Positions 2,608 to 20,567 of a DNA stretch of 20,622 nt are shown piece after piece (position 1 is the stretch's first letter; each line of letters begins with the position of its first letter). The translations under genes and the position numbers were made by a program. Origin of the DNA: a virus. Below the pieces are notes generated by a model. That model saw nothing but the letters and a program-made list of their open reading frames with translations, was not told the origin of the DNA and ran no database searches. Where the stretch lies: positions 1-20,622 of the IMG/VR virus record IMGVR_UViG_3300016457_000155; one strand, 5' to 3'.

Positions 2608-2817
2608 TTACAATTGTCCTGCTTCCTTTCGCATGTTCTCTTGAATAACAAGGAATCGCTCCTTTGAGAATTTAAAACAATACGTTCTGGGTAGCTCAAT
2701 ACGAGTCTCATCATCAAGGATAAACCAGCGGTAATCCTTGTCCAGAACACCGTCTCCCTTAACCCTTTCCAGTTTATGATTAAACCTTCCTTTTCCATAC
2801 CACACTGTATAGGTCAT
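2608..2817 (-). CDS. Small hypothetical protein between collar fibre and nozzle
   Basis: A 69-aa, basic, beta-then-helix protein (starts MTYTVWYGKGRF, ends IQENMRKEAGQL). Its ATG overlaps the TAA of the collar-fibre gene by one base (TAATG), and its stop is directly followed by the nozzle start, so it sits inside the operon and is probably translationally coupled. This frame is preferred over an overlapping 68-aa frame at 2592-2798, which would run into the nozzle gene and lacks such junctions. I do not recognise the family. Its constant place between two tail genes suggests a small tail or assembly component, which is inference. Confidence 0.6.
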   Translation of the reverse strand: MTYTVWYGKGRFNHKLERVKGDGVLDKDYRWFILDDETRIELPRTYCFKFSKERFLVIQENMRKEAGQL

Positions 2818-3719
2818 TACTTAACCCTCATTATATAGTAACAAGCAAGGTAGGCTGGCCTATTCTCTGTTGTAGATGCACCATCCGTTACACCTTTAAC
2901 CTTTACCGTATCACTCGTTCCTGCATAGCCTGTATAATTCGTATAACTAGTACCTTCTATGGTACCATATGCACCTTGACCGCCTGCTGGTCCCGCTGTA
3001 GCAGGAGGTACGGCTGTATGTCTATGCTTGACTACCTCATCGATGTATAGACTAGTGTGCTCTGTATCTGCCGTACCATGTGTATGAGACATACTATTGC
3101 TACCACCTGTACCGCCACAAGTAGTATCACCCATTATGAACCTATCATCGGTAAGATTAGGAAGGTATCTACCAGAACCACCGAATATAGGACTGTCTGA
3201 ATCGTTAAGAGCCGCTCCGTTACAGACATACCAACCGTAATCGTTAAGATAGGCATTTATAGCTGCAACTGTATTACCGCTACCCAAGACATGTGTATAG
3301 GAACCGTTACTTCCATTACCGAAATACCCACCAATCCAGGGTACAATTGTTCCTACAGGGACAAAGCCATAGGCACGGGGGGAAACAAGAGTACCAAGCT
3401 CTATCTTGTCATCGGAATTAACCTTGACAATGTCCACATGAGACGTTCCAGAATGGTCAGTTGCACGGATAAAGGTATTGTTGGCTACGAGATTTTCATT
3501 TCCTTCATGTAGGTCATCTAACCAGTCTTCGAGGTTTCCCCCCGTCCAGTACGAGTTTTCGTCTTCAATCGGTATTGCTTTAGCCGTAACCTTGTGAATC
3601 GTTTGGCTTCCTCCAGTAGAGGTTGTCCTGCTAAAGGTAGCATTTGTCGTTCCACCACCACTACCGAAGTTAATATCCTCAACACCAATCTTCTCAACAG
3701 TTACAGTTATGTCAGCCAT
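2817..3719 (-). CDS. Tail fibre with phage tail-collar domain
   Basis: This 300-aa protein has an unrecognised N-terminal half (about 1-115) and a C-terminal tail-collar domain. The collar begins with GTIVPWIGG (123-131), continues with GWYVCNG (162-168) and YLPNLTDDRFIMG (185-197), then a Gly-rich histidine region (MSHTHG 210-215; HRH 232-234), and ends with ENRPAYLACYYIMRVK (285-300). The paired HxH motifs match the metal-binding histidines of T4 gp12-type receptor-binding tips, so the C-terminus probably forms an intertwined trimer that contacts the host surface. The start has a GGAG site located in the end of the preceding 53-aa coiled-coil gene, 2 bases upstream. The gene carries two copies of the G6 word, one at the collar boundary (VSPR, 112-115) and one at residues 59-62. 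Confidence 0.85.
   Translation of the reverse strand: MADITVTVEKIGVEDINFGSGGGTTNATFSRTTSTGGSQTIHKVTAKAIPIEDENSYWTGGNLEDWLDDLHEGNENLVANNTFIRATDHSGTSHVDIVKVNSDDKIELGTLVSPRAYGFVPVGTIVPWIGGYFGNGSNGSYTHVLGSGNTVAAINAYLNDYGWYVCNGAALNDSDSPIFGGSGRYLPNLTDDRFIMGDTTCGGTGGSNSMSHTHGTADTEHTSLYIDEVVKHRHTAVPPATAGPAGGQGAYGTIEGTSYTNYTGYAGTSDTVKVKGVTDGASTTENRPAYLACYYIMRVK
3375..3386 (-). repeat. G6 word, site 1 (GTTTCCCCCCGT on minus)
   Basis: Exact 12-mer inside the collar-fibre gene. Read as VSPR (residues 112-115), just before the tail-collar domain. Confidence 0.9.
3534..3545 (+). repeat. G6 word, site 2 (GTTTCCCCCCGT on plus)
   Basis: Exact 12-mer inside the collar-fibre gene, opposite orientation to site 1. 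Read as TGGN (59-62). Confidence 0.9.
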
Positions 3720-3721
3720 AC

Positions 3722-3883
3722 CTATTTCTCCTTTTTCTTATCTTTTTTCAAACCCATAATTTCCTTTTCTAATTTTTCGTTCTTTTCCTGTAGTTCCTTT
3801 ATTATAACACTTAACTGCTCTATCCGCAATGCCTGTCCCCCAATGACCCTTAAGACAAAGTCCTCACTAATTAGCTTTTCCAT
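3722..3883 (-). CDS. Small coiled-coil protein
   Basis: A 53-aa ORF from ATG at 3883 to TAG. A good Shine-Dalgarno (AGGGAGAAATC before ATG) lies in the end of the overlapping 52-aa gene. After a short N-terminal part (MEKLISEDFVLRVIGGQ), the rest is a heptad-like, strongly charged helix (LRIEQLSVIIKELQEKNEKL, then Lys/Glu-rich) ending in a lysine tail, so a coiled coil is likely. There is no signal or membrane segment, so it is not a holin. It lies immediately upstream of the tail-collar fibre, which makes a fibre-assembly or trimerisation helper conceivable, but that is inference only. The gene is short, but its RBS, frame and spacing are convincing. Confidence 0.6.
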   Translation of the reverse strand: MEKLISEDFVLRVIGGQALRIEQLSVIIKELQEKNEKLEKEIMGLKKDKKKEK

Positions 3884-4025
3884 GATTTCTCCCTATAAGA
3901 TCAAAGATATTTCCATAAACGCTTTCAGCAAAAGGCATGTTGAACCTTTCAGGAAAGAAAGTCTTTGCAACCATTTGAGTTGAAATGGAGCAAGCTTCTA
4001 ATATTTCTTTAAGATCGTCTTGCAT
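3867..4025 (-). CDS. Small protein resembling the N-terminus of a large terminase
   Basis: A 52-aa ORF from ATG at 4025, with an AAAGGG site about nine bases upstream, overlapping the 53-aa gene by 17 bases. Residues 22-33 read TFFPERFNMPFA, followed by an amphipathic helix (ESVYGNIFDLIG). From memory of terminase sequences, a segment of the form FFPERF-x2-PF-x-hydrophobic-IF-x-LI stands just before the ATPase P-loop in some large terminases. Here nothing follows it: no Walker A and no nuclease. The large terminase encoded in this window starts quite differently. A degraded second copy lies just upstream. It could be a remnant, a decoy of the packaging motor, or an unrelated small protein with a chance resemblance. 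Confidence 0.5.
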   Translation of the reverse strand: MQDDLKEILEACSISTQMVAKTFFPERFNMPFAESVYGNIFDLIGRNHGKAN

Positions 4026-4075
4026 AAATTATTACCCTTTAGTATTATTAATAAGTTCATTCTGCCAGCCAAACT

Positions 4076-4235
4076 TCAGTTGTCATTTATGTCTTCCTTC
4101 TTTTCTAAAATCATAATCTTCAATATAAATATAGAAGCTCCATTAGTCTCTTCACTCCTTAATTCTTTGAACATTCTCTCCATAAGTATTTCTGCAAAAG
4201 GTATGTAAACACCCGAAAAAGAATGTCTTTTCCAT
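4076..4235 (-). pseudogene. Frameshifted copy of the 52-aa FFPERF-type gene
   Basis: An ATG at 4235 with a close GGAG site starts MEKTFFFG and soon stops in that frame. A neighbouring frame continues with VYIPFAEILMERMFKEL to a TGA at 4076. Set against the 52-aa gene (KTFF-x6-PFAE-x6-F-x2-L), the two agree if two bases were lost between KTFF and PFAE: the stretch from AAG to the Pro codon is 33 bases in the intact gene and 31 here. The last part (SIFILKIMILEKKEDI) can also be read as a worn relative of the following coiled-coil gene. This is a hand alignment of short sequences, so chance similarity is not excluded. Confidence 0.35.
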
Positions 4236-4247
4236 TAATCTCCAGTC

Positions 4248-7200
4248 TTATTTCTGTTCAATAAACCACATCATCTGAGTTATATAATCACTCGCATCAG
4301 AACATTCTCCAGTTATTTTAACTATAGTATCTAACCTAGTATCAATAACCCAATTCTCAAAACCTTGCAACAATGTAGTACCATCATACCCACGCCAAGT
4401 AATATATTGATTATTGTAATTAGTATTTCCAATCCAGGCCTCAAAATACCAATCATTTATATTATTAGCGGCAGCATGAAAAATAATTGAACTCGGCCCA
4501 AAGTAAAATTTTAGTTGTTTATTGTCGTTAGACCCATGTTTTACTCCAGATGCAATTATGTGAAGAACACCATGATTACCTAGCTGACCAGCAGGAAGAG
4601 TATATGTCTGCAAATCATCTTCTCCAACACCAGAAGTAGAAACATTAACATTACTACGCTCTAAGGGGTTGCTACTTATTATATATTGTGTTGCATCAGC
4701 ATTACTAGCCATAGAAAATTTTGCACCATTTTGTCCAGAAGACTCACAATCTATGAATCTAATATTAGTCGGAATAGCATTGAAACTGGCTGTCTTAAAG
4801 CCATGCTCAACATATGGAGTATCTTGTGTATCAATTACTGAGCATCGAACAAAGTCAACATTACCAAATGTACTATAGATAAAATCAGTATAATCTCGAA
4901 CATAGAAGGCGGCATTGCCTGAACCAGAAGCACTAGTATTTCTTGAAGTATTACAATTAATGGCAACACAATCTTCAATAGTTATTTTAGGACCGACACC
5001 TGAAACACGTGCAATGTTATACCCTAAATAATAATTTTCTTTAGCTATACAGTTTCTAATGCTAATAGTCCCTAGTATATCATCTGCAATATTAAGTATA
5101 GAAAATCCAGCATTGTCATTATTCTTAGATATACAACTATCAAACGATATACTTATAGGCCCAGGAGATGTATTGTCAAGTTTTTCTAGTGTTATAAAGA
5201 AACCTGCACCATCATTATTAGATGAAGTACACCCAGTAAATTTGATATTCTTGATTGTATCTAGATTTGTACTTGGCTCAATATCAACTCCAGCTGAAGG
5301 ATCTGTTCCTGTTGTATTTCTAAAGTGGCAATTAATAACCGTTAAACCATCAACGCTAGTTACACTCATTCCCTGACGGCGATTACTGTCGCAAATTACG
5401 TTTTCAATAAAAACATTTTCATTACCACCTGGACGCAAGTCTGAACCAACAAAAATACCATCTCCACCAGTATCCTTAATAACTAAATTACAAATTATTA
5501 TATTTGTAGTCCCCTCAAGGGAAATACCGTGATTCCATTCAGATGAGTAAGCTGATTTGTTCATCTGAAGAGTTGCATAGTTACCATCTATTACAACATT
5601 ATTACTGTCTAACAGAGTAAAAATACTCTCACCTGGCCTTGGTTGGGAAAGATCATCTACTGCCTGAATGACTACTCCTGGAGCGAATACAATTTTAGTA
5701 TTATCTGAAGGGAATAATTGTCCTGTTAAATAGTAGGAGCCTGTCTGCTTTGGAAAGTATACTGTTCTGTTAGTTCCAGCGTCTAACGCAGCCTGTATCT
5801 TTATAGTTTCATCATTACTGGATCCACTATTTCCTGGCGCTGTAGCTGTTCCTCTTGCACCCCACCATTGAGGGTATATTACTATATTATCACTACCTTC
5901 AAAACTCACACTCCCATCCCCACTAAATACCTGATAAAGCCCAGCAGAGAAAGGGCCGTTGAGAGTTAACTTATATCCAGCTTTCACATAATCGGTAGCT
6001 TTTCCGTCAGGGTCTTCATTGTCTGAGAGTCTAATGTAGACTGTATTATAACCAAGACTGTCATTATCTGCCCAATCCCATTCGCCCACCGCAAGAGTAC
6101 CAGCAGTACCTTCTGTTAATTCAGATCCATTTTCAGTACAACAAGTAGGTTCGCTTATTTCTGGATCGCCACCTGCTGTGGCTTCAAGATAATATTCGTA
6201 TGGAGAAGTTGCTTGTAGATTATCAATGTGAATAGTACACGTACCTATATCTACTGCACATTTCAATCCTACAGAAATAATCGCTGTATCATTGCTTCTA
6301 TTTGCAAATGGAAGTTCTACTTGTGTCCACGTATCTATTGATAAAGCAGGTATATCAATTGTTTCCAATGGAGAAGCGCAATTGGTTGTGTCATCAAGTA
6401 AAAGCTGCAAGTCTCCATCGGCAGTTGCAACACTGCTCTTTATCCATAATTTAATATAAGTATAACCTGAAATATCTAGAGAAGTAATTGCTTCAGTAGC
6501 TAATATATCACCAGCGGCTACGTCATCCCCTACAACCAATTTAACACTTGCAGAACCTACTTTATAATCTGCTGTATCCGTACTGGATGTTACATCTGCG
6601 TCTACGGATTCATCCCAAGCGTCTTCACAGTCCTCAACTAATTGTGATTTCGTAGATTGTGTCCATTTGTAGTCTGTAGTACGAATAGAACGATCAGTAT
6701 ATAGAATTGCTCCCTTTTCAACTTTAGTGTTGATATTTGAGGGAATTGTTTTACTTGTTGTTACTTTGTAAGTTCCAGTAGAAAATACTATTGTTCCATT
6801 TATATCAGATACAGAATCTATAGCACTTTGTATTGCAGATGTATCATCTGTTGCTCCAGTACTTCTTGCACCCCACCATTCCGGATAGATATTATTTATA
6901 GCACCACTACCAAACTTCACGGTTACATCATCATCAAATACCTGATACAAACCCGCTTGGAAAGGACCATTAAACGTAAGCGTATAGGCACCAGAGAAAG
7001 ACGTTCCCTCTAAGGCTACTATGTTTATATTACCTGATACAGTTACATTAGCTGTAAGCGTTAATGATGTGGACGTTATCAATGTAGTAGCATTACTAGT
7101 TCCTATATCTGAAACAGCATCTGCAAAGGAATCATAATCTTTTGCAAATACGATATTTTCTAGATGCCCTTCAAGTCTACTTATTTTGTAGTCATGTGAA

Positions 7201-7349
7201 GTTGTTACCTCGCTGTCGTCTATTCCGACTTTTTCTTCCAATGCCATACAAGCATCCTGAACGTTATTTATGTCCACCGCTTGTACAACATCAACATTAT
7301 CTTGTTTATCTGTAAAACTGTCTAATGCTGTTGGATAATCTATTGCCAT
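4248..7349 (-). CDS. Mosaic tailspike with pectate-lyase-type beta-helix
   Basis: This 1033-aa protein starts with a common phage tail-fibre attachment segment (DYPTALDSFTDKQDNVDVVQ, then NDxAxxALEEKVGI-like, 1-45). Module one (about 121-200) has FNGPFQAGLYQVF, PEWWGARSTG (156-165) and SAIQSAIDS, the opening of a Pectate_lyase_3 helix. A jelly-roll, carbohydrate-binding-like domain follows (about 237-380; VEDCEDAW, GSASVKLVV, WTQVELPF), then a small beta region (395-455). Module one is then repeated (LNGPFSAGLYQVF, PQWWGARGTA, 493-502) and leads into a full right-handed beta-helix (to about 880) and a separate C-terminal beta-sandwich (905-1033). Such spikes bind and often cleave host surface polysaccharide; no catalytic residues can be assigned here. 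The RBS is GAGAGG ahead of ATG 7349. Confidence 0.8.
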   Translation of the reverse strand: MAIDYPTALDSFTDKQDNVDVVQAVDINNVQDACMALEEKVGIDDSEVTTSHDYKISRLEGHLENIVFAKDYDSFADAVSDIGTSNATTLITSTSLTLTANVTVSGNINIVALEGTSFSGAYTLTFNGPFQAGLYQVFDDDVTVKFGSGAINNIYPEWWGARSTGATDDTSAIQSAIDSVSDINGTIVFSTGTYKVTTSKTIPSNINTKVEKGAILYTDRSIRTTDYKWTQSTKSQLVEDCEDAWDESVDADVTSSTDTADYKVGSASVKLVVGDDVAAGDILATEAITSLDISGYTYIKLWIKSSVATADGDLQLLLDDTTNCASPLETIDIPALSIDTWTQVELPFANRSNDTAIISVGLKCAVDIGTCTIHIDNLQATSPYEYYLEATAGGDPEISEPTCCTENGSELTEGTAGTLAVGEWDWADNDSLGYNTVYIRLSDNEDPDGKATDYVKAGYKLTLNGPFSAGLYQVFSGDGSVSFEGSDNIVIYPQWWGARGTATAPGNSGSSNDETIKIQAALDAGTNRTVYFPKQTGSYYLTGQLFPSDNTKIVFAPGVVIQAVDDLSQPRPGESIFTLLDSNNVVIDGNYATLQMNKSAYSSEWNHGISLEGTTNIIICNLVIKDTGGDGIFVGSDLRPGGNENVFIENVICDSNRRQGMSVTSVDGLTVINCHFRNTTGTDPSAGVDIEPSTNLDTIKNIKFTGCTSSNNDGAGFFITLEKLDNTSPGPISISFDSCISKNNDNAGFSILNIADDILGTISIRNCIAKENYYLGYNIARVSGVGPKITIEDCVAINCNTSRNTSASGSGNAAFYVRDYTDFIYSTFGNVDFVRCSVIDTQDTPYVEHGFKTASFNAIPTNIRFIDCESSGQNGAKFSMASNADATQYIISSNPLERSNVNVSTSGVGEDDLQTYTLPAGQLGNHGVLHIIASGVKHGSNDNKQLKFYFGPSSIIFHAAANNINDWYFEAWIGNTNYNNQYITWRGYDGTTLLQGFENWVIDTRLDTIVKITGECSDASDYITQMMWFIEQK
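5715..5978 (-). repeat. Internal module repeat, copy 2 (tailspike residues 458-545)
   Basis: This segment encodes LTLNGPFSAGLYQVF, a short beta linker, then IYPQWWGARGTA and an IQAALDAG helix start. It matches copy 1 upstream in the same gene in order and spacing. This copy runs on into the complete beta-helix. Confidence 0.75.
6210..6641 (-). other. Jelly-roll / carbohydrate-binding-like domain inserted in the tailspike
   Basis: Residues about 237-380 have the look of a carbohydrate-binding jelly roll: VEDCEDAW start, KVGSASVKLVVGDDVAAGD, YTYIKLWIKSS, DIPALSIDTWTQVELPF and CTIHIDNLQA. The domain lies between the two repeats of the WWGARG module. The assignment is by pattern, not search. Confidence 0.55.
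6750..6989 (-). repeat. Internal module repeat, copy 1 (tailspike residues 121-200)
   Basis: This segment encodes FNGPFQAGLYQVF, then IYPEWWGARSTG and a SAIQSAIDS helix start. It is a partial copy of the beta-helix opening found again about 1 kb downstream; here the helix is cut short after about 35 residues. Confidence 0.75.
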
Positions 7350-7378
7350 TTCATCTTACCTCTCTAGTTCTTATTCTT

Positions 7379-8140: not shown

Positions 8141-8856
8141 TACCACCTCCACCGAGGATAGTTATCAGGAAGTCTAGGACCGCCAGAACGCGGGCGTCTC
8201 TTGCCAGCTATTCCATAAATGTACATTCTATCCGAAATCAAATCTATGGTCTCCCAAGTTTTCCTTTCCTGATAGTACAATGTAAGGTACTGTCTTCCCT
8301 TGTTGATATCAGCCACCTCTGATTGAGCGATAAGTAATTGACCCAAGCACCAGTTAAGGATAAGACCTCTTTCATTACTTATAGGTGCCGGTAAGGTTGA
8401 GGAAGTATCATCCTCTACAGCTCCAGTGTACTTCTTGTACCGTAAAGTAAGAACCTTTCCATCATAATCATCGCTAGGACACTTGTACAAGGTTATCTTA
8501 TCATAGCCATCATATCCACGAACATAGTACCTGGGTCTTCCAGTATCATCAGGCCAATCAATCTTGTAATTATCCAGTTCCAGTGTCGTTGTGGGATAGA
8601 CTCGCTCATTATCCTCATCCGTAATACGAGCAATCTCTGCCAAATCAGACGGCAAGGTATAGCTTGCTGTTCCAGATACTAATTCTATTGTGCTATCGTC
8701 TACCTCAATGAACATTCCACAAGTACGGGATAAGTCCTTGAGACAATTATTGATTTCTTGAAGAACAGTACTCCTTTCTATTGCTACTGGCGTAGTAGTA
8801 TCCAGGTGCAGTTTAGTAAGAATCTCATCTATAAGACTAGCAACATTTTCAGCCAT
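8140..8856 (-). CDS. Head-tail adaptor (SU10 / T7 gp11-like)
   Basis: This 238-aa protein opens with a helical bundle (SLIDEILTKL, then STVLQEINNCLKDLSR, about residues 7-43). A beta segment follows (TASYTLPSDLAEIARI), then a beta-rich middle with a Tyr-rich stretch (RYYVRGYDGYDKITLYKCPS), and a C-terminal helix pair (LILNWCLGQLLIAQSE, LTLYYQERKTW). This order is typical of adaptor proteins that dock under the portal in podoviruses. The C-terminus is basic and Pro/Arg/Trp-rich (KRRPRSGGPR to YPRWRW). Its ATG overlaps the methyltransferase end by eight bases. The call rests on fold-like pattern and on its place between head and tail genes. Confidence 0.65.
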   Translation of the reverse strand: MAENVASLIDEILTKLHLDTTTPVAIERSTVLQEINNCLKDLSRTCGMFIEVDDSTIELVSGTASYTLPSDLAEIARITDEDNERVYPTTTLELDNYKIDWPDDTGRPRYYVRGYDGYDKITLYKCPSDDYDGKVLTLRYKKYTGAVEDDTSSTLPAPISNERGLILNWCLGQLLIAQSEVADINKGRQYLTLYYQERKTWETIDLISDRMYIYGIAGKRRPRSGGPRLPDNYPRWRW

Positions 8857-9481
8857 GATTATCTCCTATTTCTATAGCGAAAGGGTCTCCAACATCCTCT
8901 TTCTTAGGAAAGGGAAAGCCGTCAAAAGTCTTCTTCCCTTTTTTCTCTCCAATGAACCGTAATTCGGCTCTGTCATAAGTACCCAAGCAACGCACTTCCC
9001 AAACAAGTCCTCGATTCCAACTAAAGAAATCAACCCTTCCAGCAAGTGTTTCTCGTGTAAAGCCCCATTGATGCTTCATTGTATCAGTAGGCAAGCCAAA
9101 AAGCATATCCATAGGCGTTATCATATACGGCTTATTCCCAATGGGATACAAACCCCGCTCGTGGTCATTCTCCAAAATCTTCTCTGCAACGAGTGAAAGG
9201 TTAGGCACAAGGATATACATTTGCCCACCAGGCTTCAATACTCGATACCATGTATGCAAAACATTAGGATACACGCGCAAGTCAATATGTTCAAGTACAT
9301 GGGAAGCGTATACAGCTTCGAAGCTCTCATTATCAAAAGGAATCTCTGTAGCAGTAGCAACAACATCGGGTTTAACATCTTCATCGATATCCAAGCGGAC
9401 TACTGTAAAAGCATCTGTTATACTCTTTGGCGTAAACTCCTTAACACCTGACCCAATATTTAAAAGTCTTGGTTTCTTCAT
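8849..9481 (-). CDS. SAM-dependent methyltransferase (class I, type 11-like)
   Basis: This 210-aa protein has a clear Rossmann methyltransferase core: motif I LNIGSG (7-12), an acidic end of strand two LDID (30-33), FEAVYASHVLEHI (54-66) and VLKPGG (81-86). The HVLEH...LKPGG pair is characteristic of Methyltransf_11-type small-molecule or glycan methyltransferases, rather than DNA methyltransferases, which would show a (D/N/S)PPY motif that is absent here. ATG overlaps the glycosyltransferase stop as ATGA, so the two are probably co-translated and act on the same product. Substrate unknown; a sugar added by the neighbouring enzyme is the simplest inference. Confidence 0.8.
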   Translation of the reverse strand: MKKPRLLNIGSGVKEFTPKSITDAFTVVRLDIDEDVKPDVVATATEIPFDNESFEAVYASHVLEHIDLRVYPNVLHTWYRVLKPGGQMYILVPNLSLVAEKILENDHERGLYPIGNKPYMITPMDMLFGLPTDTMKHQWGFTRETLAGRVDFFSWNRGLVWEVRCLGTYDRAELRFIGEKKGKKTFDGFPFPKKEDVGDPFAIEIGDNHG

Positions 9482-10287
9482 ATCTTTCCCAAGCTCCCAT
9501 CCAAGGAAATAAGGTCTATGTTACCTTCCCTGATGTTAAGATTCCAGGAATCTACCAAGGCCTTAACTTCATCCAGTCTCTTCGGGTCCTCAATAATTCC
9601 AGTAACAAGCTTGTATTTCAAGCGATTATACTCAACATTATCAGCATCTACCCAACCTACATCAAGCATGTGTCTAGCAGAAAAGGTCAAGTCAATTGCA
9701 CACTTAAAGTCAGGAATTACAGACATAGCCTTTGCACAAAAGTACACATCTTCTGTATGATACTTACCTGTTCGATACCATTCCTTTTCGCGAAAAGAAA
9801 TCGACATTGAAGTAAAGACGTTCATACGGGTCAATGTACAGCCATTCCCAATTGCCTTACACCTGTAAAGTCCATCACGGGGGGAAACAGAGGACTCGTC
9901 CAAACCCAATGTCCATTCATTCCCTTCCCCGTTAAAAGCCATCAATGAATATGGATACCCTCGGACATAGTACTTTGGCGAAATCATGTGAATATCCTGA
10001 TGCTTTTCCAATCGCTTCACCAGCCTTACAAGGGTATCGCTCTCGCAGACCGTATCATCATCCAACCAAAAGAAATAATCACACCCAGACTTAATAGCTG
10101 CGTCAATTGCAATATTCCTTGCACTAGCAATTTCAAGTCTTTGTGGGGTAATAAGCACCAGGGAATCCCGTGGCCGTTTCTTCCCATAGTAATAAAGCAT
10201 TGCTGCCAAGGAGCTGGCAACATGAGGATGCACATTGGAAAGCATTACAGAACCAACGGCTATTTTAAGCCTTTTACTCGTAGCCAT
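9478..10287 (-). CDS. GT-A fold glycosyltransferase
   Basis: This 269-aa protein starts with a strand-turn AVGSVMLSN and a helix. It contains ARNIAIDAAI (56-65), the metal/nucleotide-sugar DxD region YFFWLDDDTV (71-80), GNGCTLTRMNVF (147-158), an acidic active-site-like HTEDVYFC (177-184) and a C-terminal His (SARHM, 206). This is the usual order in family-2-like GT-A enzymes. There is no membrane segment, so it acts in the cytoplasm. An AAAAGGAT site lies ahead of ATG 10287, inside the zinc-ribbon gene (28-base overlap). A G6 word encodes VSPR at 134-137, in a loop. Target unknown; the position among virion genes suggests glycosylation of a capsid or tail protein. Confidence 0.8.
   Translation of the reverse strand: MATSKRLKIAVGSVMLSNVHPHVASSLAAMLYYYGKKRPRDSLVLITPQRLEIASARNIAIDAAIKSGCDYFFWLDDDTVCESDTLVRLVKRLEKHQDIHMISPKYYVRGYPYSLMAFNGEGNEWTLGLDESSVSPRDGLYRCKAIGNGCTLTRMNVFTSMSISFREKEWYRTGKYHTEDVYFCAKAMSVIPDFKCAIDLTFSARHMLDVGWVDADNVEYNRLKYKLVTGIIEDPKRLDEVKALVDSWNLNIREGNIDLISLDGSLGKI
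9877..9888 (-). repeat. G6 word, site 3
   Basis: Exact 12-mer in the glycosyltransferase gene, read as VSPR (134-137). Confidence 0.9.
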
Positions 10288-10442
10288 ATAAGTATCCTTT
10301 TAAAGAGGCTAGGCCGCCACCCTTCACAAGGAAGGATGACACGCCTAGCTCCACATTTTGGACACCCACCCAATTTATGTACTTCTTCTAGAAGCATTGC
10401 TGCTCCACAAGATGCACACTTTAGATAGGTATCACGCTCCAT
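10260..10442 (-). CDS. Small zinc-ribbon protein
   Basis: This 60-aa protein has two CxxC knuckles, CASC (9-12) and CPKC (27-30), separated by 14 residues, followed by a basic, partly hydrophobic C-terminus (RPSLFKRILIWLRVKGLK). This is a classic zinc ribbon. It starts one base after the decoration gene ends and overlaps the glycosyltransferase start. Such small ribbons are frequent in phages and usually have no known role. It could bind nucleic acid or partner the next enzyme. Confidence 0.7.
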   Translation of the reverse strand: MERDTYLKCASCGAAMLLEEVHKLGGCPKCGARRVILPCEGWRPSLFKRILIWLRVKGLK

Positions 10443-10443
10443 T

Positions 10444-10896
10444 TTACATACACCTTACAAACACCTTTGCCGTTGTTGATATGGTAGAAACACTTGCAGA
10501 AGCGACAGTCTCCATAGCAACGAACATTGGTGGTTCCTTGGAAATAACACTTCCTGCATCAACAGCAGTCAAGGCACTCTGTGCAGTAGATGCAACAAAG
10601 ATATCACCAATAGCCACATTGGAATTGGTTGCCGTTCCGTGTGCATAGATGCGGGCATTGTCCATCACGCCGTATACCTGGCAAAGACCATAAGTACCAT
10701 CAGGTATGCTTTCAGCCGCCAAGCCTACAACGAGAGATTTCTTTGCTGCTGTCTGCACAGCTTGAACATCAATTCCATCTCTGGTTCCATCGCATTTCCA
10801 TTCCAAAGGAGTCCCAATGGGAAGTGTCGCACCTTCATCATTCACAACAACGATGAAAACCTTTTCAGGTCCTTTCGTTAATACTGTAGTAAGCAC
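10444..10896 (-). CDS. Capsid decoration-like protein
   Basis: A 150-aa, beta-rich, Ala/Val/Thr-rich protein with segments PIGTPLEWKCDG, KSLVVGLAAESIP, GLCQVYGVMDNARIYA and VAIGDIFVAST. This resembles small head-decoration proteins encoded directly after the capsid gene. The start is GTG 10896, with an exceptionally strong Shine-Dalgarno (AGGGGAGGTG) that overlaps the capsid gene's stop, as expected for a protein made in high copy number. No catalytic motif is visible. The role rests on gene order, size and composition. Confidence 0.6.
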   Translation of the reverse strand: MLTTVLTKGPEKVFIVVVNDEGATLPIGTPLEWKCDGTRDGIDVQAVQTAAKKSLVVGLAAESIPDGTYGLCQVYGVMDNARIYAHGTATNSNVAIGDIFVASTAQSALTAVDAGSVISKEPPMFVAMETVASASVSTISTTAKVFVRCM

Positions 10897-10910
10897 AATT
10901 CACCTCCCCT
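10897..10910 (-). promoter_or_regulatory. Strong ribosome binding site for the decoration gene
   Basis: The minus strand reads AGGGGAGGTG, then AATT, then the GTG start. It overlaps the capsid stop codon (TAG at 10911-10909), so translation of the two genes is tightly linked. Confidence 0.75.
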
Positions 10911-11958
10911 ACGAAATATCCGTAATGTTGCTGTCTACAAAGACACCATGTTTACGGCGATTACTGACTGTCATGTTTCCATACCACAAAATCAAGCAAC
11001 TCCTTGCATCCTGATTCTGTGGTGTTATCCACGGTGTTCTGACAAAGTTCTTGTTGGATGCATAACGCAACCGTAAGAACCTACTGTTAAGCATTATTGC
11101 ACCGCATGTACTAGCCGGGTCAGATACATTTGCAGATGCATATTGCTCATCCCAGTACATAGTCGCACCACGGAATTTCAGGTTCTGGAAACCATAAGCA
11201 GCCGCTTCCTGATCCATTGGTACATCCAGAGCCTTCTTGACAGCGAGATAAGACTCATAGCTTTCAAAGAGCTTCTCACTCACAAGAATTATGTCTGGGG
11301 TACCTCCAGTTCCCTTGGAACAGTAATTAAAGAGCTGTGCCATTGCAACAGGACCTGTAGCAGCAGCACTTGAGGAATCGAACCATGTAAAGGTTGAACC
11401 TCCATTACCCTTTGCCTTGTTCCTCCACCAAGTATTAGCCGAAGTATCAATAGCTCCGACATCGTAACTGTCAGGAGTCTCGGACACCAGAGCTAATAGT
11501 CCAGCGGGGTCTTTGGATGTCTGCGAAGCATTGTACTTCCCAGCAGCAAAAATGAAGCCAGCAAACTTCTCTTGGAAAGACATCTCCAATTGACGTAGCT
11601 TGCTCCCAACAAGGTTAATTAACTGTCCCCTTCCTGCATTCTGAAACTCAGAGAGGCCGTCAATTATAACAGAACCTCCCACCTGTGCCCAAGGATACAG
11701 AGCCGCTGTGATTCCTTCCTGCGGAGTCAAGTCAAGAGTCTCATACCGCTCGTAAGACTTCACAGTGGAATTAGTGCCATACATCAGCGGTTCAATAATC
11801 TGTATACCACCACTAGCAGCCTGATAGCATCCTTTTCGCTTGAGTTCAAACATAGCAGGAGTTTCTTTGAAAATATTGTCCGTTAGAGTCTTCATGTAAA
11901 GGTCTAGACTCGTAGAGACAATTTCATCAAAAGTTCTAGTTTCAGACGTATTTGACAC
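10909..11958 (-). CDS. Major capsid protein
   Basis: This 349-aa protein starts at GTG 11958 (AGGGGG site upstream). It begins with a helical arm (LDLYMKTLTDNIFKETPAMF, about 17-36) and GGIQIIEPLMYG, then WAQVGGSVIIDGLSE and a long spine-like helix (INLVGSKLRQLEMSFQEKFA). It has a central domain with PDIILVSEKLFESYESYL and a C-terminal RFLRLRYASNKNFVRTPWI followed by SCLILWYGNMTVSNRRKHG. This is the order of HK97-fold capsid proteins of the P-loop/E-loop/spine type. It follows the scaffold gene and precedes a decoration-like gene, the standard head cassette. No protease gene is nearby, and the scaffold is a separate gene. Confidence 0.85.
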   Translation of the reverse strand: MSNTSETRTFDEIVSTSLDLYMKTLTDNIFKETPAMFELKRKGCYQAASGGIQIIEPLMYGTNSTVKSYERYETLDLTPQEGITAALYPWAQVGGSVIIDGLSEFQNAGRGQLINLVGSKLRQLEMSFQEKFAGFIFAAGKYNASQTSKDPAGLLALVSETPDSYDVGAIDTSANTWWRNKAKGNGGSTFTWFDSSSAAATGPVAMAQLFNYCSKGTGGTPDIILVSEKLFESYESYLAVKKALDVPMDQEAAAYGFQNLKFRGATMYWDEQYASANVSDPASTCGAIMLNSRFLRLRYASNKNFVRTPWITPQNQDARSCLILWYGNMTVSNRRKHGVFVDSNITDIS

Positions 11959-11969
11959 TTTATTTCCCC

Positions 11970-12773
11970 CTACTTATATCCTAATTTATTTGTAACATAT
12001 TCCAAGATTTGTTCAGGTGTGGCGTTCTTCGGAACATCACTAAAATCAGGACCCTTCTCTTCTCTTCCTGTCATTCCAGTACCGAAATGGCTTTGCAAAA
12101 GGAAAGCTGATTCTGGTACAGCCTTTCCTGTCTTCTGTCTGTCCAATACCGCCAAGTGATAAGCATCAGGCAATTGGAATGCCCGACCATTCTGGATAAT
12201 GCTCATCACTTCCTGCTGAAACGTTGGGTCGTAAAGATATGGATACATCGGCTTACCACTAGCATCCAATGTATTGGCCATCTTCTGCAATTCAACCTGT
12301 ATACCTGTAAGATGAGTAGTAGCTTTGGTAGTCTTTACCTCATCTAGGACAGGTCGAATAGACTCTTTTACCATCTCTTGTATTGCCCGTGGTAAGGTCT
12401 TTACTAAATCCTCAATCGTTTCAGCGGATTGGAGTTCTTGCAGAACCTGGTTTCCAGTACCTTCGTTTCCCCCCGTAAGAGAAGAATCTGCTCCGCCAGC
12501 TTGCGATTCTAGCCACTGTTGAAACTTTGGGTCTTGCAACATGGAATCTAGAATCTTGGCTTTTCGCTCCGCTTCACTGTACTCCGCCTTTACCTCGTTA
12601 ACCCTCTTGGAAACGATTTGGTTTACCTTCTCCTGTTGTTCTGGAGTAAAAATACCCCCTTGAGGCTCTGTATTCGTCCCAGTGTCTGGAGAAGTTGACC
12701 CCTGCCCTGGTTCAGGGTTTCCATCCGTAACCGATACATTGTTCCCAGGTGTTACCATTGTGTTCTCTTCCAT
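11970..12773 (-). CDS. Scaffolding protein
   Basis: This 267-aa protein has a disordered Gly/Pro/Thr/Asn N-terminus (1-40), then a coiled coil (FTPEQQEKVNQIVSKRVNEV, about 42-61, continuing to about 85), a helical middle and a short C-terminal domain (PKNATPEQILEYVTNKLGYK) that may contact the capsid protein. The EQQEKVNQIV...KR motif is common in phage scaffolds. ATG overlaps the stop of the 101-aa gene as TAATG. A G6 word encodes TGGN at 100-103, in a disordered Gly-rich stretch. Confidence 0.8.
   Translation of the reverse strand: MEENTMVTPGNNVSVTDGNPEPGQGSTSPDTGTNTEPQGGIFTPEQQEKVNQIVSKRVNEVKAEYSEAERKAKILDSMLQDPKFQQWLESQAGGADSSLTGGNEGTGNQVLQELQSAETIEDLVKTLPRAIQEMVKESIRPVLDEVKTTKATTHLTGIQVELQKMANTLDASGKPMYPYLYDPTFQQEVMSIIQNGRAFQLPDAYHLAVLDRQKTGKAVPESAFLLQSHFGTGMTGREEKGPDFSDVPKNATPEQILEYVTNKLGYK
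12465..12476 (+). repeat. G6 word, site 4
   Basis: Exact 12-mer in the scaffold gene, read as TGGN (100-103) in a disordered segment. Confidence 0.9.
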
Positions 12774-13078
12774 TATACCTTAACTCCTTTCCAATTTTTT
12801 AACCGACTGATACCCTTCTTTTTAAGGACAGTTTCCACTACCTTTTCAGGAGTTACCGTCGGTTTTGGTCTCTTATTTATACTCTGTGGATCGTACTGCA
12901 TCAACCCCCTTTCTTGCATTTTTTCATACTTTTCCCTTTTTGTTTCTATCCAGCCTAGCGTAGGGTCATAATACGGTCCATTGAAAACAACATCAAACAT
13001 ACCCTTTAGGCTGGGAATCCTATCCGATATCTTAACCAATTTACCATTTCTGAATGCATATACCCCTGTCTTACGCAT
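12773..13078 (-). CDS. Small protein between portal and scaffold
   Basis: A 101-aa, basic protein beginning MRKTGVYAFRNGKLVKISDR, with a central segment NGPYYDPTLGWIETKREKYE then MQERGLMQYDP. Proteins with a '(Y)Y-x-P-x-LG-x-xI-x-[ST][RK]RE...GL' pattern are common after the portal gene in phages, mostly without known function. Both ends are TAATG overlaps (with portal and scaffold), so it is locked into the head operon. A role in head assembly or packaging is likely from position only. Confidence 0.6.
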   Translation of the reverse strand: MRKTGVYAFRNGKLVKISDRIPSLKGMFDVVFNGPYYDPTLGWIETKREKYEKMQERGLMQYDPQSINKRPKPTVTPEKVVETVLKKKGISRLKNWKGVKV

Positions 13079-14703
13079 TACCTGAACAAGCCTCCTCTAC
13101 CTACTGCCTGCATTACTGCATTTGGATTTGGTAGCTCTTGCGACCTTGGATTCACACCTTGTCCAACTCCTAGCAAACGGGGGGAAACGGGGGCTTGGGA
13201 TAGCAAAGCATTTTTGTCCCTAACATTCATCAAGCCCATTACTGTATTTAAAAGGGCCTCGTGATTAACAGCTGGGTCATTCGCAAATGTCTGGTAAAGC
13301 AGTATAGCTCTCTGGAAGTTAGCAGACTCGTCTCTCGGTCGCATACTTCCTGAATGCACCTCAACGAAATGCTCACCTTGTAACTCTTCCTTCTGAACAA
13401 TTCGCCACTGTACCTCGCCATCTGGTCCATAGAATTGAGCAACCTGTGGACTAGGATATAGCTTCTTCATTATCTCTATATCCTTAAACGCAACACGCTC
13501 AGCGAAATCCCCAACTAAGTCAACCTTTTCACCAAGCCGTAACCTAGCACCTGCCATAATCTGTTCAGCTTCATAGGCCGTCTTCGTCCCACCAACTTGA
13601 CCAGCTTGCAAGTACTCATTGATTCCAGTAATTTCCCTATGGTCATTCCTGATAAGTGCCTGATAATTATACACATCTGAAGACAATGGTGCATCGGTAA
13701 TAGGCTGCAAACCATCAATGTCATTCATCTGGACAATGACGCCATCCTCACCACTCTCGAGGGCATCAAGGGCTTCCTTGTCAGCAGAATGCTTCTGCAA
13801 CTTGTATTTACGATTGAACCTCTTTGTGTGGACAAGCATCAATGTCCGCAACCTATCAAGCTCTCTTTGCTGTTCCATTACAGGCTCAAGATCGGCAATG
13901 CCATAATGCTCATCGACAATTTCATTGAAAACAAGCTGCGTAAATAGACTCTTCAATGGATACGGTGATTGTCGCGGAGGGTCAAGAAAAGAATCATAAT
14001 CGGGGCTTATCACGGATATTTCATGATGCAACTGGTCATGTACCTCATAGACCTCAACACGCCCCAATGTGTCATCGTGTACATTCTCCAATTGGTCTGA
14101 ATCGGATTGCATCTCCAATCCACTTTCCAAGGACTTTATTTTTGCTGAAGGTAGATTGGCCTTTGGCCATCTCTTCTTTGCCTCTTCACGGCTTAAGACA
14201 ACCCGTCTAAAGACATAGTAGGCATCCTCAACATTTACCGCTCCAGGCTCTATCCACAAGTCATATGGACTGACCCTTGTCAGATAGACATCAGGCAAGC
14301 CAGTTCCAGGATTCGGCATGACATGAGACATGCCATAACCAACGCTAAGTAAAAGGGCATCTAGAACAATGAGACGAACAATTGCCTTCCTTTCCTGCAT
14401 TCTCCAAAGCCTATTCTCAAGGAATTGAAGAACCCTAGCACTTTCCTCGAACCAAGGCCGTGTTCCAGTAATGTAAATATAGGGATTTTCTGAACAAGAG
14501 GCTCGGAGAAGGACCTTTATTGTCGGGAAGGCAAGATTAACATGAATATTCTCTGCCTCAAGGAAGTCATCCTCACTCTCTCCCTTGTACTGGGAAAGTG
14601 CCATCCTCCAGGTTTGTTCAATCTTTGTCTCTCGAAAGTTCTTTGCCCTTTCAAGACGTGTCTTCCATTCTTCTATATTATGCCGTGTCTTTCTTCTTCC
14701 CAT
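13078..14703 (-). CDS. Portal protein
   Basis: This 541-aa protein has an N-terminal helical region (EEWKTRLERAKNFRETKIEQ), then NPYIYITGTRPWFEESARVL and a wing-like domain with VYLTRVSPYDLWIEPGAVNV and VFRRVVLSREEAKKRWPKA. The crown/stem region contains YGIADLEPVMEQQRELDRLR and TGINEYLQAGQVGGTKTAYE, then AEQIMAGARLRLGEKVDLVG. This fits P22/T7-like portals of about 500-700 aa. The portal forms the DNA entry ring and binds terminase and adaptor. It is overlapped by terminase upstream and the 101-aa gene downstream, both as TAATG. A G6 word encodes VSPR at 506-509, in the flexible C-terminal tail. Confidence 0.85.
   Translation of the reverse strand: MGRRKTRHNIEEWKTRLERAKNFRETKIEQTWRMALSQYKGESEDDFLEAENIHVNLAFPTIKVLLRASCSENPYIYITGTRPWFEESARVLQFLENRLWRMQERKAIVRLIVLDALLLSVGYGMSHVMPNPGTGLPDVYLTRVSPYDLWIEPGAVNVEDAYYVFRRVVLSREEAKKRWPKANLPSAKIKSLESGLEMQSDSDQLENVHDDTLGRVEVYEVHDQLHHEISVISPDYDSFLDPPRQSPYPLKSLFTQLVFNEIVDEHYGIADLEPVMEQQRELDRLRTLMLVHTKRFNRKYKLQKHSADKEALDALESGEDGVIVQMNDIDGLQPITDAPLSSDVYNYQALIRNDHREITGINEYLQAGQVGGTKTAYEAEQIMAGARLRLGEKVDLVGDFAERVAFKDIEIMKKLYPSPQVAQFYGPDGEVQWRIVQKEELQGEHFVEVHSGSMRPRDESANFQRAILLYQTFANDPAVNHEALLNTVMGLMNVRDKNALLSQAPVSPRLLGVGQGVNPRSQELPNPNAVMQAVGRGGLFR
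13177..13188 (-). repeat. G6 word, site 5
   Basis: Exact 12-mer in the portal gene, read as VSPR (506-509) in the C-terminal tail. Confidence 0.9.
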
Positions 14704-16319
14704 TACATCATACTCCGTAACAGTTTCCTAGCATAGCTATCTCCGTAAAAGCTGCGAAGAAGATACCGTCCCCTTCTATTCCCGTCTATTATGTCGGACA
14801 AATCATCAATATTATCAAAGGGATAAATAGGTTTTTCAACATCAATTAGTTCAAAGGCTTCATCATCCTCATTCATATCCTCTTCATGAGCAATTAACTG
14901 TTTCATTCCAATAGCCGCCAAGCCCAAAGCAATTACACAGTCGTCAAATTCTCCAGTAGGAGCACCAAGTTTCCCCCCGTCAGACTCAAAGGTTAACAAT
15001 TCGTGCTCCGTTTGTGAGTTATGAATTACCAATCCCCTTCGTAAGTATAATTTCAATGTATTGCATAAATATGTCTTTCCAGTCTCCGTAGTTACAAAAC
15101 CTAAAGTTTTGTTCCGCTTCTCCAATTCCTTTCTATTCGGTACCTGCCTTCGATAAATCAAGCCTACAGGATAAATCCTTTTCAAAACATCCACACCGAG
15201 CTGACCATGATTATTAAGCTCTGGAATGATAAATGCATTGTTATACTTGCGTCCCAATTCAGCTGCTATCTCGCTAGCCCTATCAGGCGTAGTCCAAGCA
15301 TCCCGATATATGGCAACCTGTTCAAATGTATTCGTATCAAGGACTTGGATAACAGTTGGGTCAAGACCCAAGCCACCACTATAGTCAATCCCAATTGTAT
15401 AACGATGCTCAGGACGGGGGGAAACATAGACAATGAGATTCCCCTCTTCCTCTTTCGGTTTCATGGCGACAAACGGGACTTGTCTAAAGAACTTTGCTCC
15501 ACTAGCAATAAAGGCTTCTTCAATCGAAGACGGATATTCCTGCAAAAACATATTCCGTCCCTCAACATCATCGGGACCCTCCATGAACTCTTCCCGTTTG
15601 GCAATGTACCATTTCATCTGTTCACGTGTCAGTTTATAAGTCCGCATCCTTTCCTTGTCCTCTTCATTCAGGAAAAGTTTTTCACCCTTCATAATGGATA
15701 GGAAATTATCCCCATCCTCGAACCAGGCATAAAAGTGTAGCTTAAAGGTACCATCGCCATGCCTTGCCCGTTCACACATTTTCTGGAAGTGATTAAATCC
15801 GTTAGCCGTTGACTCAATGACAATGTGTTTTGCAAACGAAGCTGCCTGCATAACCGAACCTATCAAGGCCTTGAGGTCTGGATAAAAAGCTGCCTCGGAG
15901 AGTAATAGATGCGTTATAGTGTCCCCTCTACCAAAGTCCTTGTCTCCAGCAGTACCAATGTAATAAGAGCTGTCAGTCTTTGGAAAGGACAGGAAATTCT
16001 TGCTATCATAACCTATAATCGGTTGCGGACCCTTAAGATGCTTAATGTAATACTTTACCTCGGCAAGATGCTTCTGGGTCGCCTCTGTATCCTGGGATAG
16101 AATAACTGCCCGTGTATTCGGCTCTGTAAGACAGGCCACGAGGAAAAGGGCCCGAATGTACGAACTGAACCCTTCACGCCTAGCCTTGAGAATTATGTCC
16201 CGCGAAGTCATTTCACTGCTAAAACGCCTCTGAACTGGATTCAGTTTAAAGTCCACCGTGATTGCCTGCTTATTGGCAATCCTAAACATTCCCTCAATTA
16301 CTCTATCCTGTGGTCTCAT
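14703..16319 (-). CDS. Terminase large subunit
   Basis: This 538-aa packaging motor has a deviant Walker A KARREGFSS (45-53), a Walker B region THLLLSEAAFY (136-146) and a coupling motif IESTANGFN (168-176). A linker leads to the RNase H-fold nuclease with GIDYSGG (310-316), PELNNHG (366-372) and GEFDDCVIALGLA (456-468), supplying the acidic metal ligands. The SEAA in place of a DE pair is known in some terminase groups. A G6 word encodes VSPR at 299-302, exactly in the linker between ATPase and nuclease; a second word lies at 14969-14980. No small terminase subunit is recognisable in the window. TAATG overlaps link it to both neighbours. Confidence 0.9.
   Translation of the reverse strand: MRPQDRVIEGMFRIANKQAITVDFKLNPVQRRFSSEMTSRDIILKARREGFSSYIRALFLVACLTEPNTRAVILSQDTEATQKHLAEVKYYIKHLKGPQPIIGYDSKNFLSFPKTDSSYYIGTAGDKDFGRGDTITHLLLSEAAFYPDLKALIGSVMQAASFAKHIVIESTANGFNHFQKMCERARHGDGTFKLHFYAWFEDGDNFLSIMKGEKLFLNEEDKERMRTYKLTREQMKWYIAKREEFMEGPDDVEGRNMFLQEYPSSIEEAFIASGAKFFRQVPFVAMKPKEEEGNLIVYVSPRPEHRYTIGIDYSGGLGLDPTVIQVLDTNTFEQVAIYRDAWTTPDRASEIAAELGRKYNNAFIIPELNNHGQLGVDVLKRIYPVGLIYRRQVPNRKELEKRNKTLGFVTTETGKTYLCNTLKLYLRRGLVIHNSQTEHELLTFESDGGKLGAPTGEFDDCVIALGLAAIGMKQLIAHEEDMNEDDEAFELIDVEKPIYPFDNIDDLSDIIDGNRRGRYLLRSFYGDSYARKLLRSMM
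14969..14980 (+). repeat. G6 word, site 6
   Basis: Exact 12-mer in the terminase gene, in a third reading frame (read as DGGK with flanking bases). Confidence 0.9.
15414..15425 (-). repeat. G6 word, site 7
   Basis: Exact 12-mer in the terminase gene, read as VSPR (299-302) at the ATPase-nuclease linker. Confidence 0.9.
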
Positions 16320-16606
16320 TATTGTGAAATCCTTATCACGGCTGTTCCAGAACTGTAAGCCCCTGTGGCAAAACCCGCACGGTACTGAACATTAAGCTCT
16401 GGCTCGTAGCCACGCTTTTCAACCGTGGAAGTAAATGACTCTACATCCTTCCAATCACTGACATCGGGGTCTCGATTCCGTCTTTGAACGGTTATCGTCC
16501 CCGACCACGTCCCAGAAATGGACAAGCTGAACCAACCAGCCACGGATATCGGGTCAGTCCATGAATTAGAACTCGATAACTCTGCTTCCACATACGCAAT
16601 AGTCAT
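16319..16606 (-). CDS. Small beta-sandwich structural protein
   Basis: A 95-aa, all-beta protein: FSLSISGTWSGTITVQRRNR, then SDWKDVESFTSTVEKRGYEP, then VQYRAGFATGAYSSGTAVIR. This pattern (GTWSGT-V-QR ... W-DV-S ... YR-G ... SGT) recurs in small phage proteins encoded near terminase and portal genes, usually called structural. ATG follows the previous stop by two bases, with a TAGGGAG site. Its TAA overlaps the terminase start. Probably a minor virion protein; function not known. Confidence 0.6.
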   Translation of the reverse strand: MTIAYVEAELSSSNSWTDPISVAGWFSLSISGTWSGTITVQRRNRDPDVSDWKDVESFTSTVEKRGYEPELNVQYRAGFATGAYSSGTAVIRISQ

Positions 16607-16608
16607 CC

Positions 16609-17058
16609 TTAACTCCCTAAAGTATATATTCCACCAGTATCCAATTGAATCGTAAAGTCCCCATCGACATTTCCTTTATCACTACCAAAATCGGCATAAG
16701 CAACTAGGGGGGAGGTGCTTGCTGTTCCAGTATCCTTGTACAAGATGGCATATCGAGCGTTGTTAAATCCAGAAGCACTTTGCGACCAGGTTGCAGGGTC
16801 ATTTGCATCTACCTTTACGGTATTGCTTGATACTGTAACGGCCTTGTTAGCAATCTCGTTTCCCCCCGCTGTATAATTAGTCCCTGATACCTCGTTTGCC
16901 GAAATATCATCCCAGAAATCATGATTAGCTCTGTCAGGCGTGTATGAGGATGTTACAAGGGCTATCTTTACAGTAGTGCTACTATTATCGTCCCAATCAA
17001 TCGAATCATCCAATGTGTTTAACTTTTTCAGAAAACTATCATACGGTACCCAAGCCAT
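16609..17058 (-). CDS. Beta-rich phage structural protein
   Basis: A 149-aa protein: an N-terminal helix (YDSFLKKLNTLDDSIDWDDN), then VKIALVTSSYTPD, ISANEVSGTNYTAGGNEIAN, WSQSASGFNNARYAILYKDT and a C-terminal VAYADFGSDKGNVDGDFTIQ. The order 'KIAL...DI...G..YT.GG...' is a familiar one in small phage virion proteins, with no assigned function. TAATG joins it to the preceding gene. An 11-of-12 G6 word encodes AGGN at 64-67. Role inferred as minor structural. Confidence 0.6.
   Translation of the reverse strand: MAWVPYDSFLKKLNTLDDSIDWDDNSSTTVKIALVTSSYTPDRANHDFWDDISANEVSGTNYTAGGNEIANKAVTVSSNTVKVDANDPATWSQSASGFNNARYAILYKDTGTASTSPLVAYADFGSDKGNVDGDFTIQLDTGGIYTLGS
16858..16869 (+). repeat. G6 word, site 8 (11 of 12)
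   Basis: GTTTCCCCCCGC, one mismatch in the last base, in the 149-aa gene. Read as AGGN (64-67). Confidence 0.85.
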
Positions 17059-17288
17059 TATTCAGCCTCCCACATTTTCTGTATTAGAAGTCGCTTTACC
17101 AATTCCTTCTTGAAGGATTGATATTCAGGAGTACCCTTCTGTAATTCCTTCAGCTTCTTCCTGCATACATTTATCCTTGCAATATTTCTATCCATGGCCT
17201 CTCTAGACCTAGGATCAGGATTTATATGCACAGGCTTCCCTGTAAACTTTATCGTGGTTTCATTACTTTTCTTACTAAAAGGCCACAT
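17058..17288 (-). CDS. Small charged hypothetical protein (start corrected)
   Basis: The preferred product is 76 aa starting MWPFSKKSNE at ATG 17288. GGAGG lies five bases before this codon and directly after the stop of the preceding gene. The upstream ATG at 17321 would add 11 residues, lie inside that gene and lack a site. The protein has an N-terminal MWPF common in phage small proteins, a beta stretch (TIKFTGKPVHI) and a long basic helix (ARINVCRKKLKELQKG to VKRLLIQKMWEAE). Unknown function. Confidence 0.6.
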   Translation of the reverse strand: MWPFSKKSNETTIKFTGKPVHINPDPRSREAMDRNIARINVCRKKLKELQKGTPEYQSFKKELVKRLLIQKMWEAE

Positions 17289-17293
17289 CTTTT

Positions 17294-17298
17294 CCTCC
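17294..17298 (-). promoter_or_regulatory. Ribosome binding site fixing the 76-aa gene start
   Basis: The minus strand reads TAA (stop of the 203-aa gene), GGAGG, AAAAG, then ATG TGG. The spacing favours ATG 17288 over ATG 17321. Confidence 0.7.
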
Positions 17299-17910
17299 TT
17301 ATCTGTGAATATCTTTATCAATATCTACAAAGATATTGGTAAATATCTTCTTAAAGAATGTTACCACACCTACACCCGTAAAGTCAATTCCTTTCCACAT
17401 TGTGATAATTGTAGCCTTCGAAATATGAACAATAGTGTCGGTTACAAGAGTTATGCTTTTACCTGTGAAATTAAGAATTGCCTTTCCAACTTGCACAAGG
17501 ATACTAGATACCAATGTGATATTCTGTCCTGTGAAGGTCAAACCTGCCTTGCTAATGGTTTCCGTAGCATCGACACGGGGGGAAACATCTCCACCCGTAA
17601 ACGCAAGCGGTACTGCTCCAATCTCTTCAGTAACATCAATCTTCGTGGATAAATCCTGCCCTGCCCATATCAAGGCTGAAGCAGATACCGTCTCGATAAC
17701 ATCCTCTTTCGTATTTACGTCTTTACCAGTTAGGGAAAGAAGCATTTTTTCTATCGTTATTATTGTTGCCCCAGCAGCTGGAATGCCACAATAATACCCT
17801 GCGACCAGCTCCCTATCTGCTGCGGAAACAGTCCCATCAGGGTCTGGATATACAATGAACCAAGGCAGGTTCTGTGCTGACCTTCTCTTGTTTGTGTTAT
17901 CTATAGCCAT
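17299..17910 (-). CDS. Structural protein with 22-residue repeats
   Basis: This 203-aa protein begins with a phage-wide N-terminal motif (NKRRSAQNLPWF, then PDPDGTVSAADRELVAGYY, residues 7-40). It then has five tandem 22-residue repeats of the form L-x-[FW]-[TA]-G-x-[DNS]-[VIL], with glycines exactly at 62, 84, 106, 128 and 150. The C-terminal 50 residues are hydrophobic (ATIITMWKGIDFTGVGVVTF, then FFKKIFTNIFVDIDKD). Repeats of this LxFTGxxIT kind occur in many phage structural proteins and probably form a beta solenoid or fibre. The third repeat carries VSPR from a G6 word where the others have NTK, STK or TLV-type residues. The SD is GGAG ahead of ATG 17910. Confidence 0.6.
   Translation of the reverse strand: MAIDNTNKRRSAQNLPWFIVYPDPDGTVSAADRELVAGYYCGIPAAGATIITIEKMLLSLTGKDVNTKEDVIETVSASALIWAGQDLSTKIDVTEEIGAVPLAFTGGDVSPRVDATETISKAGLTFTGQNITLVSSILVQVGKAILNFTGKSITLVTDTIVHISKATIITMWKGIDFTGVGVVTFFKKIFTNIFVDIDKDIHR
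17416..17748 (-). repeat. Five 22-residue (66-bp) protein repeats
   Basis: Residues 55-165 of the 203-aa protein. The aligned units start KMLLSLTGKDV, SALIWAGQDL, VPLAFTGGDV, AGLTFTGQNI and AILNFTGKSI, with no gaps between them. Confidence 0.8.
17575..17586 (-). repeat. G6 word, site 9
   Basis: Exact 12-mer in the 203-aa repeat protein, read as VSPR (109-112) in its third 22-residue repeat. Confidence 0.9.
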
Positions 17911-17913
17911 CCA

Positions 17914-20558: not shown

Positions 20559-20567
20559 CTAAATCTC

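Follow-up and report, generated by a model that had tools for sequence, protein, structure and literature searches.

Genes of the window and its second contig

The window, by which we mean the whole 20,622-nucleotide stretch of DNA analysed here, carries the gene content of a tailed phage: an SU10-like adaptor and portal, a terminase, a scaffold and a major head protein. This structural block also includes a methyltransferase-domain gene and a glycosyltransferase-like gene (together 8849-10287), which lie downstream of the gene for the major head protein and beside that for the adaptor. A second contig, L009 (IMGVR_UViG_3300016457_000154), is 100% identical to positions 9162-20622 of the window over 11,461 bp and runs 3,679 bases beyond it; as the two records may stem from related samples, they are not fully independent. 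Neither contig contains a tRNA or an Rfam family. A search with the window found no known phage with closely similar DNA. Its closest relative is G002 (IMGVR_UViG_3300044580_000075), of 36.6 kb: the major head proteins are 70% identical and the large terminase proteins (TerL) 56%. A search with the portal protein for more of the same virus matched L009 only, and a search for its early region with the DNA polymerase of G002 matched G002 only.

Dispersed over these genes is a non-palindromic word of 12 bases, GTTTCCCCCCGT. By direct count, the window holds eight exact copies of it on both strands, and a ninth copy, GTTTCCCCCCGC, differs in a single base (T12 to C). With the L009 extension included, there are 11 exact copies and one near copy in 24.3 kb, roughly one copy per 2,000 bases. 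The sites are given below; coordinates are those of the window unless L009 is named, and the four-letter readings are those of the phage gene at the site.

3375..3386, minus strand: exact word, sense, VSPR; tail-associated gene 2817-3719
3534..3545, plus strand: exact word, antisense, TGGN; tail-associated gene 2817-3719
9877..9888, minus strand: exact word, sense, VSPR; glycosyltransferase-like gene 9478-10287; also at L009 14414
12465..12476, plus strand: exact word, antisense, TGGN; scaffold-like gene 11970-12773; also at L009 11826
13177..13188, minus strand: exact word, sense, VSPR; C-terminal part of the portal gene 13078-14703; also at L009 11114
14969..14980, plus strand: exact word, antisense, DGGK; large terminase gene 14703-16319; gap-free substitution relative to G002; also at L009 9322
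15414..15425, minus strand: exact word, sense, VSPR; large terminase gene, immediately ahead of the nuclease-domain motif; gap-free substitution relative to G002; also at L009 8877
16858..16869, plus strand: near copy with one mismatch, antisense, AGGN; gene 16609-17058
17575..17586, minus strand: exact word, sense, VSPR; gene 17299-17910; also at L009 6716
L009 903 and 951, plus strand: two words 48 bp apart, intergenic; space after a small, putatively TerS-like gene
L009 2065, plus strand: word, VSPR; DUF5675 gene

The nine window sites, which an earlier note on this DNA had placed in seven genes, were all recovered at their positions, on their strands and in these seven genes, eight of them exact and the one at 16858 with its single mismatch. 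Ten of the 12 copies in the combined sequence are intragenic and two are intergenic. Eight lie on the coding strand and four on the other (24.3 kb), a split compatible with an even one (binomial p 0.39). The small L009 gene upstream of the copies at 903 and 951 may encode a TerS-like protein; this is our own reading of its sequence, which has no family match.

Chance expectation and strictness of the word

The expectation of far less than one copy per 20.6 kb, put forward in the earlier note, agrees with an order-2 Markov model, which predicts about 0.001 exact copies. That note had also proposed a codon-preserving shuffle; when the window genes were shuffled in this way 2,000 times, no copy resulted in 1,964 cases and one in 36, never more, against the eight observed. 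When up to two mismatches are allowed, dinucleotide shuffles produce 1.14 matches on average and 5 at most, and the window itself adds only one match to the nine sites, namely GTTTCCATCCGT at 12717, with two mismatches. The enrichment above background continues outside the window, where the 3,679 extra bases of L009 hold three more exact sites.

The word is also strict. All 12 copies agree at the first 11 bases and 11 of them share the last one. Each of the first 11 columns carries 2.0 bit, compared with 0.04 to 0.72 bit for the flanking columns, in line with the earlier observation that the flanks are not conserved. Our recount likewise agrees that the word accounts for all but one of the ten G6/C6 runs in the window. 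Under codon shuffling the genes should hold 2.8 runs of this kind, with a maximum of 8, and ten were observed.

The shuffles and the enrichment that continues in a second contig make chance or an artefact of a single assembly very unlikely. We found no point in favour of chance, codon usage, a repeated protein motif or misassembly, and put their joint probability close to nil: the dinucleotide and codon shuffles contradict the first two, antisense and intergenic copies the third, and the last is countered by the presence of the same six exact window sites in both assemblies and by open reading frames that are unbroken across all intragenic sites.

Selection on the DNA rather than the protein

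The six intragenic sense copies, five in window genes and one in a gene of the L009 extension, all read GTT TCC CCC CGT (VSPR), and VSPR is absent elsewhere among the 6,414 codons of the window genes. The four antisense copies encode TGGN, TGGN, AGGN and DGGK. The three coding readings described earlier for the window genes are thus accurate: VSPR five times, TGGN or AGGN three times, and DGGK once. Because antisense and intergenic copies exist, because the sense copies are coded identically, and because codon shuffles do not yield the observed set, the unit under selection is the DNA word and not the protein, as the earlier note had held.

Three other origins were considered; two were rejected altogether and the third at two sites. 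VSPR as a protein motif is ruled out by the antisense and intergenic copies and by the same 12 bases in every sense copy. Programmed frameshifting at a GGGAAAC heptamer is ruled out, since most copies present GTT TCC CCC CGT as the sense strand. Insertion of a 12-nt element is ruled out at the two TerL sites; both align without gaps to different residues in G002, so that the word arose there from substitutions. For most sites in the fiber, scaffold and portal genes, the surrounding alignments contain gaps and leave the insertion question undecided.

Lineage specificity

The 36.6 kb of G002 contain no copy of the word and no G6/C6 run. The word may have been gained in the lineage of this phage or lost in that of G002, and the comparison fits either course. 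Scans of viral contigs for close pairs of the word, whose power to detect a given phage is modest, returned only this virus, and apart from L009 the word is absent from every relative examined. Absent from G002 and not found by the pair scans in other viral contigs, it is specific to this lineage as far as tested. A full-text literature search with the word and with its 11-base core gave no relevant paper, and a search of the literature on similar dispersed phage words found nothing closer than the systems discussed below.

We also asked whether relatives have a word of their own. G002 has no comparable 10-12-mer. In the more distant relative G003 (L116), AACGCACC, often as TAACGCACC followed by T or C, occurs at nine sites on both strands (e.g. 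13018 and 16025); the signal is weak, and its enrichment falls under codon shuffling. Two similar phage contigs, L067 and L068, carry ACTTGTAAAGCA five times in one orientation with AT-rich flanks, which looks like a set of promoters or operators.

Comparison with nick words

In a blind screen for dispersed, over-represented 10-mers in 77 phage loci, this word came out on top (score 62.3), with the nick motif of Pseudomonas phage tf in second place (36.3). The loci were mostly relatives of this phage by TerL or head protein, and the ranking is therefore no survey of all phages. The recovery of the tf motif, which is experimentally proven, serves as a positive control, and the screen could be applied to all phage genomes. 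Phage tf carries 14 copies of TACT/RTGMC on one strand at which its DNA is nicked, and the two nicks examined in detail are present in >90% of the phage population (PMC3517423). In our recount, all 14 motifs of tf lie on one strand. Such confinement to one strand holds for the known nick words, and the role of the nicks in the DNA of T5, phiKMV and tf is still unknown (PMC3517423, PMC11780129).

Like the nick words of tf and the LUZ24-like phages (TACT/RTGMC), of the phiKMV-like phages (CGACxxxxxCCTA/CTCCGG) and of T5, the word studied here is strict, non-palindromic, often intragenic and specific to a phage group, and as a strict word it is enriched far above chance. The tf word, the nearest signal in the screen, is comparable in number, with about a dozen copies, but it differs in sequence and the present word is about 1.6 times as dense. 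Unlike the nick words, it occupies both strands (8 and 4), and this placement counts against the known nick systems. The genes of the window and the extension (24.3 kb, with the early region missing) yielded no candidate recogniser, be it a nickase or another protein. An ATP-dependent DNA ligase, such as phiKMV has, is encoded in G002; this ligase was seen in the relative and not in the present phage.

Stoperators, host-wide words and modification sites

The word could also be an operator set for a phage-encoded regulator that in addition blocks transcription elongation, as the stoperators of mycobacteriophages do. The stoperators of the Cluster A mycobacteriophages (GGTGGMTGTCAAG) are, like the present word, asymmetric 12-13-mers (13 bp there, 12 bp here) that are specific to a phage or clade and dispersed at about 0.5 per kb: the 49 kb of D29 hold 30 sites within two mismatches of the consensus, and here 12 copies were counted in 24.3 kb. 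The two intergenic copies 48 bp apart past the putative TerS-like gene (L009 903 and 951) also lend themselves to such a role. Stoperators, however, occupy short spaces between genes and point along the direction of transcription, an orientation essential for their function (PMC9283540). In D29, 22 of the 30 sites fall between genes or at their edges, and many of the sites are degenerate, whereas the present copies are mostly intragenic rather than placed in short intergenic or promoter regions, four of the 12 oppose transcription of the coding strand, and 11 are identical. No cognate repressor was found in the 24.3 kb, from which the early region is missing. Overall, we regard an operator set of this type as unlikely.

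Alternatively, the phage may have accumulated a host-wide signal, such as a Chi-like hotspot, an FtsK-orienting sequence or an uptake sequence, because the machinery of its host reads it. Some Chi sites are G-rich, and the G-rich strand of the word, ACGGGGGGAAAC, recalls them; known Chi sites, however, have 5-8 nt and are shorter than 12 nt. As in Chi and the uptake sequences of the Neisseriaceae, we are dealing with a short strict word that is found in both orientations, inside and outside genes. The resemblance to the uptake sequences extends to length, intragenic placement and density; these are 10-12-mers with no obvious preference for a frame or for the inside or outside of genes in the species examined (PMC3630211). 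Chi and uptake sequences, however, are words that pervade a host genome, and none of the host genomes sampled has the present word at high density. When the genomes of 84,980 species were scanned for two words on the same strand 1-31 bases apart, only two isolated pairs appeared, one in a genome with 25 copies in 3.7 Mb and one in a genome with 2 copies in 4.4 Mb; the former, from Ruminococcus, lies within a short local direct repeat, in a genome that holds only those 25 copies. No genome among them was dense in close pairs, compared with a word density of about 490 per Mb in the phage. By our estimate a 3-Mb host at the density of the phage would hold about 10 pairs, and one with a word per 10 kb about 0.5; a low-density or unsampled host may still be compatible with the scan. 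A host-wide word of the Chi or uptake type is disfavoured by these data, and we do not consider it likely.

Another proposal is that the phage modifies DNA sequence-specifically at the word, for instance by inserting 7-deazaguanine at the run GGGGGG within it. In this respect G002 is of some interest: it encodes QueD- and QueE-like enzymes and, from our inspection of the sequence, possibly a DpdA-like protein (with the DNA ligase mentioned above, at L114:7604-8685 and 12723-13580). Its gene content suggests deazaguanine-modified DNA in this phage group. The DpdA reading, however, is without Pfam or NCBIfam support, G002 itself is without the word, and twelve sites per 24 kb would protect little against restriction. 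We therefore hold this proposal to be quite improbable.

A probable protein that reads the word

Enrichment, strictness, selection at the level of DNA, placement in genes and absence from the nearest relative were all observed directly, and some sequence-reading protein probably uses the word. The reading that we prefer, albeit tentatively, is that of a recognition word for a phage-encoded DNA-acting protein, with a nickase-like enzyme foremost. The word would then be a dispersed recognition site, kept in the phage lineage by selection on DNA. Its reader would be a sequence-specific DNA-acting protein, probably encoded by the phage outside the sequenced part, that would bind or cut at GTTTCCCCCCGT at any copy and on either strand. 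The invariance at 11 of the 12 positions, with no signal in the flanks and no graded variants, speaks for an enzyme-like recogniser more than for a graded binding site. As the closest working model one may take site-specific nicking of the kind found in T5, phiKMV and tf, but with sites on both strands. The recogniser may instead be encoded by the host. As for the roles that the earlier note had listed, a host-wide Chi or uptake function is disfavoured by the pair scan, and a phage-encoded binding or nicking protein, though putative, fits better.

Being mostly intragenic, on both strands and stricter than stoperators, the word is a member of neither the nick-word nor the stoperator family on the features tested. 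It is conceivable, if doubtful, that we are looking at an undescribed kind of phage-encoded system, different from both the one-strand nick words and the stoperators. A strict 12-bp word, kept on both strands even at a cost in amino-acid choice, would then label the phage genome for machinery of the phage that processes or protects it. Where strict dispersed phage words have been studied, they point to unexplained biology, as with the nicks in T5, phiKMV and tf. The present word is a stronger signal, on both strands, and its sense copies put the same Val-Ser-Pro-Arg into six different proteins. Finding the protein that reads it may settle the role of such words.

Other sequence signals in this phage

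A second and weaker word, TACTGGAA, occurs 13 times in the window, in all cases on the coding (minus) strand and never on the other: at 867, 936, 1574, 2394, 6773, 7840, 8538, 9597, 12074, 12452, 13623, 14463 and 16725. Codon shuffles expect 1.6 copies, with a maximum of 7, and each variant with a single mismatch is present 0 to 3 times. In part it corresponds to the dicodon ACT GGA, with a residual flank preference (p about 0.004). Its first five bases and its restriction to one strand recall the tf nick word TACT/GTGAC; we do not claim it as a nick word.

The HindIII site AAGCTT is scarce in the window and the L009 extension, where the genes contain 2 sites and codon shuffling predicts 8.9 (500 shuffles, with a minimum of 3); G002 has 55 such sites. 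A restriction enzyme of the host may have led this lineage to avoid the site. Finally, TATTGATTTTATT occurs in three copies, one of them inverted, at L009:16-28, 130-142 and 186-198, in a stretch of about 180 bp that seems to be non-coding and precedes the putative TerS-like gene; these are possible operator, origin or end-associated repeats.
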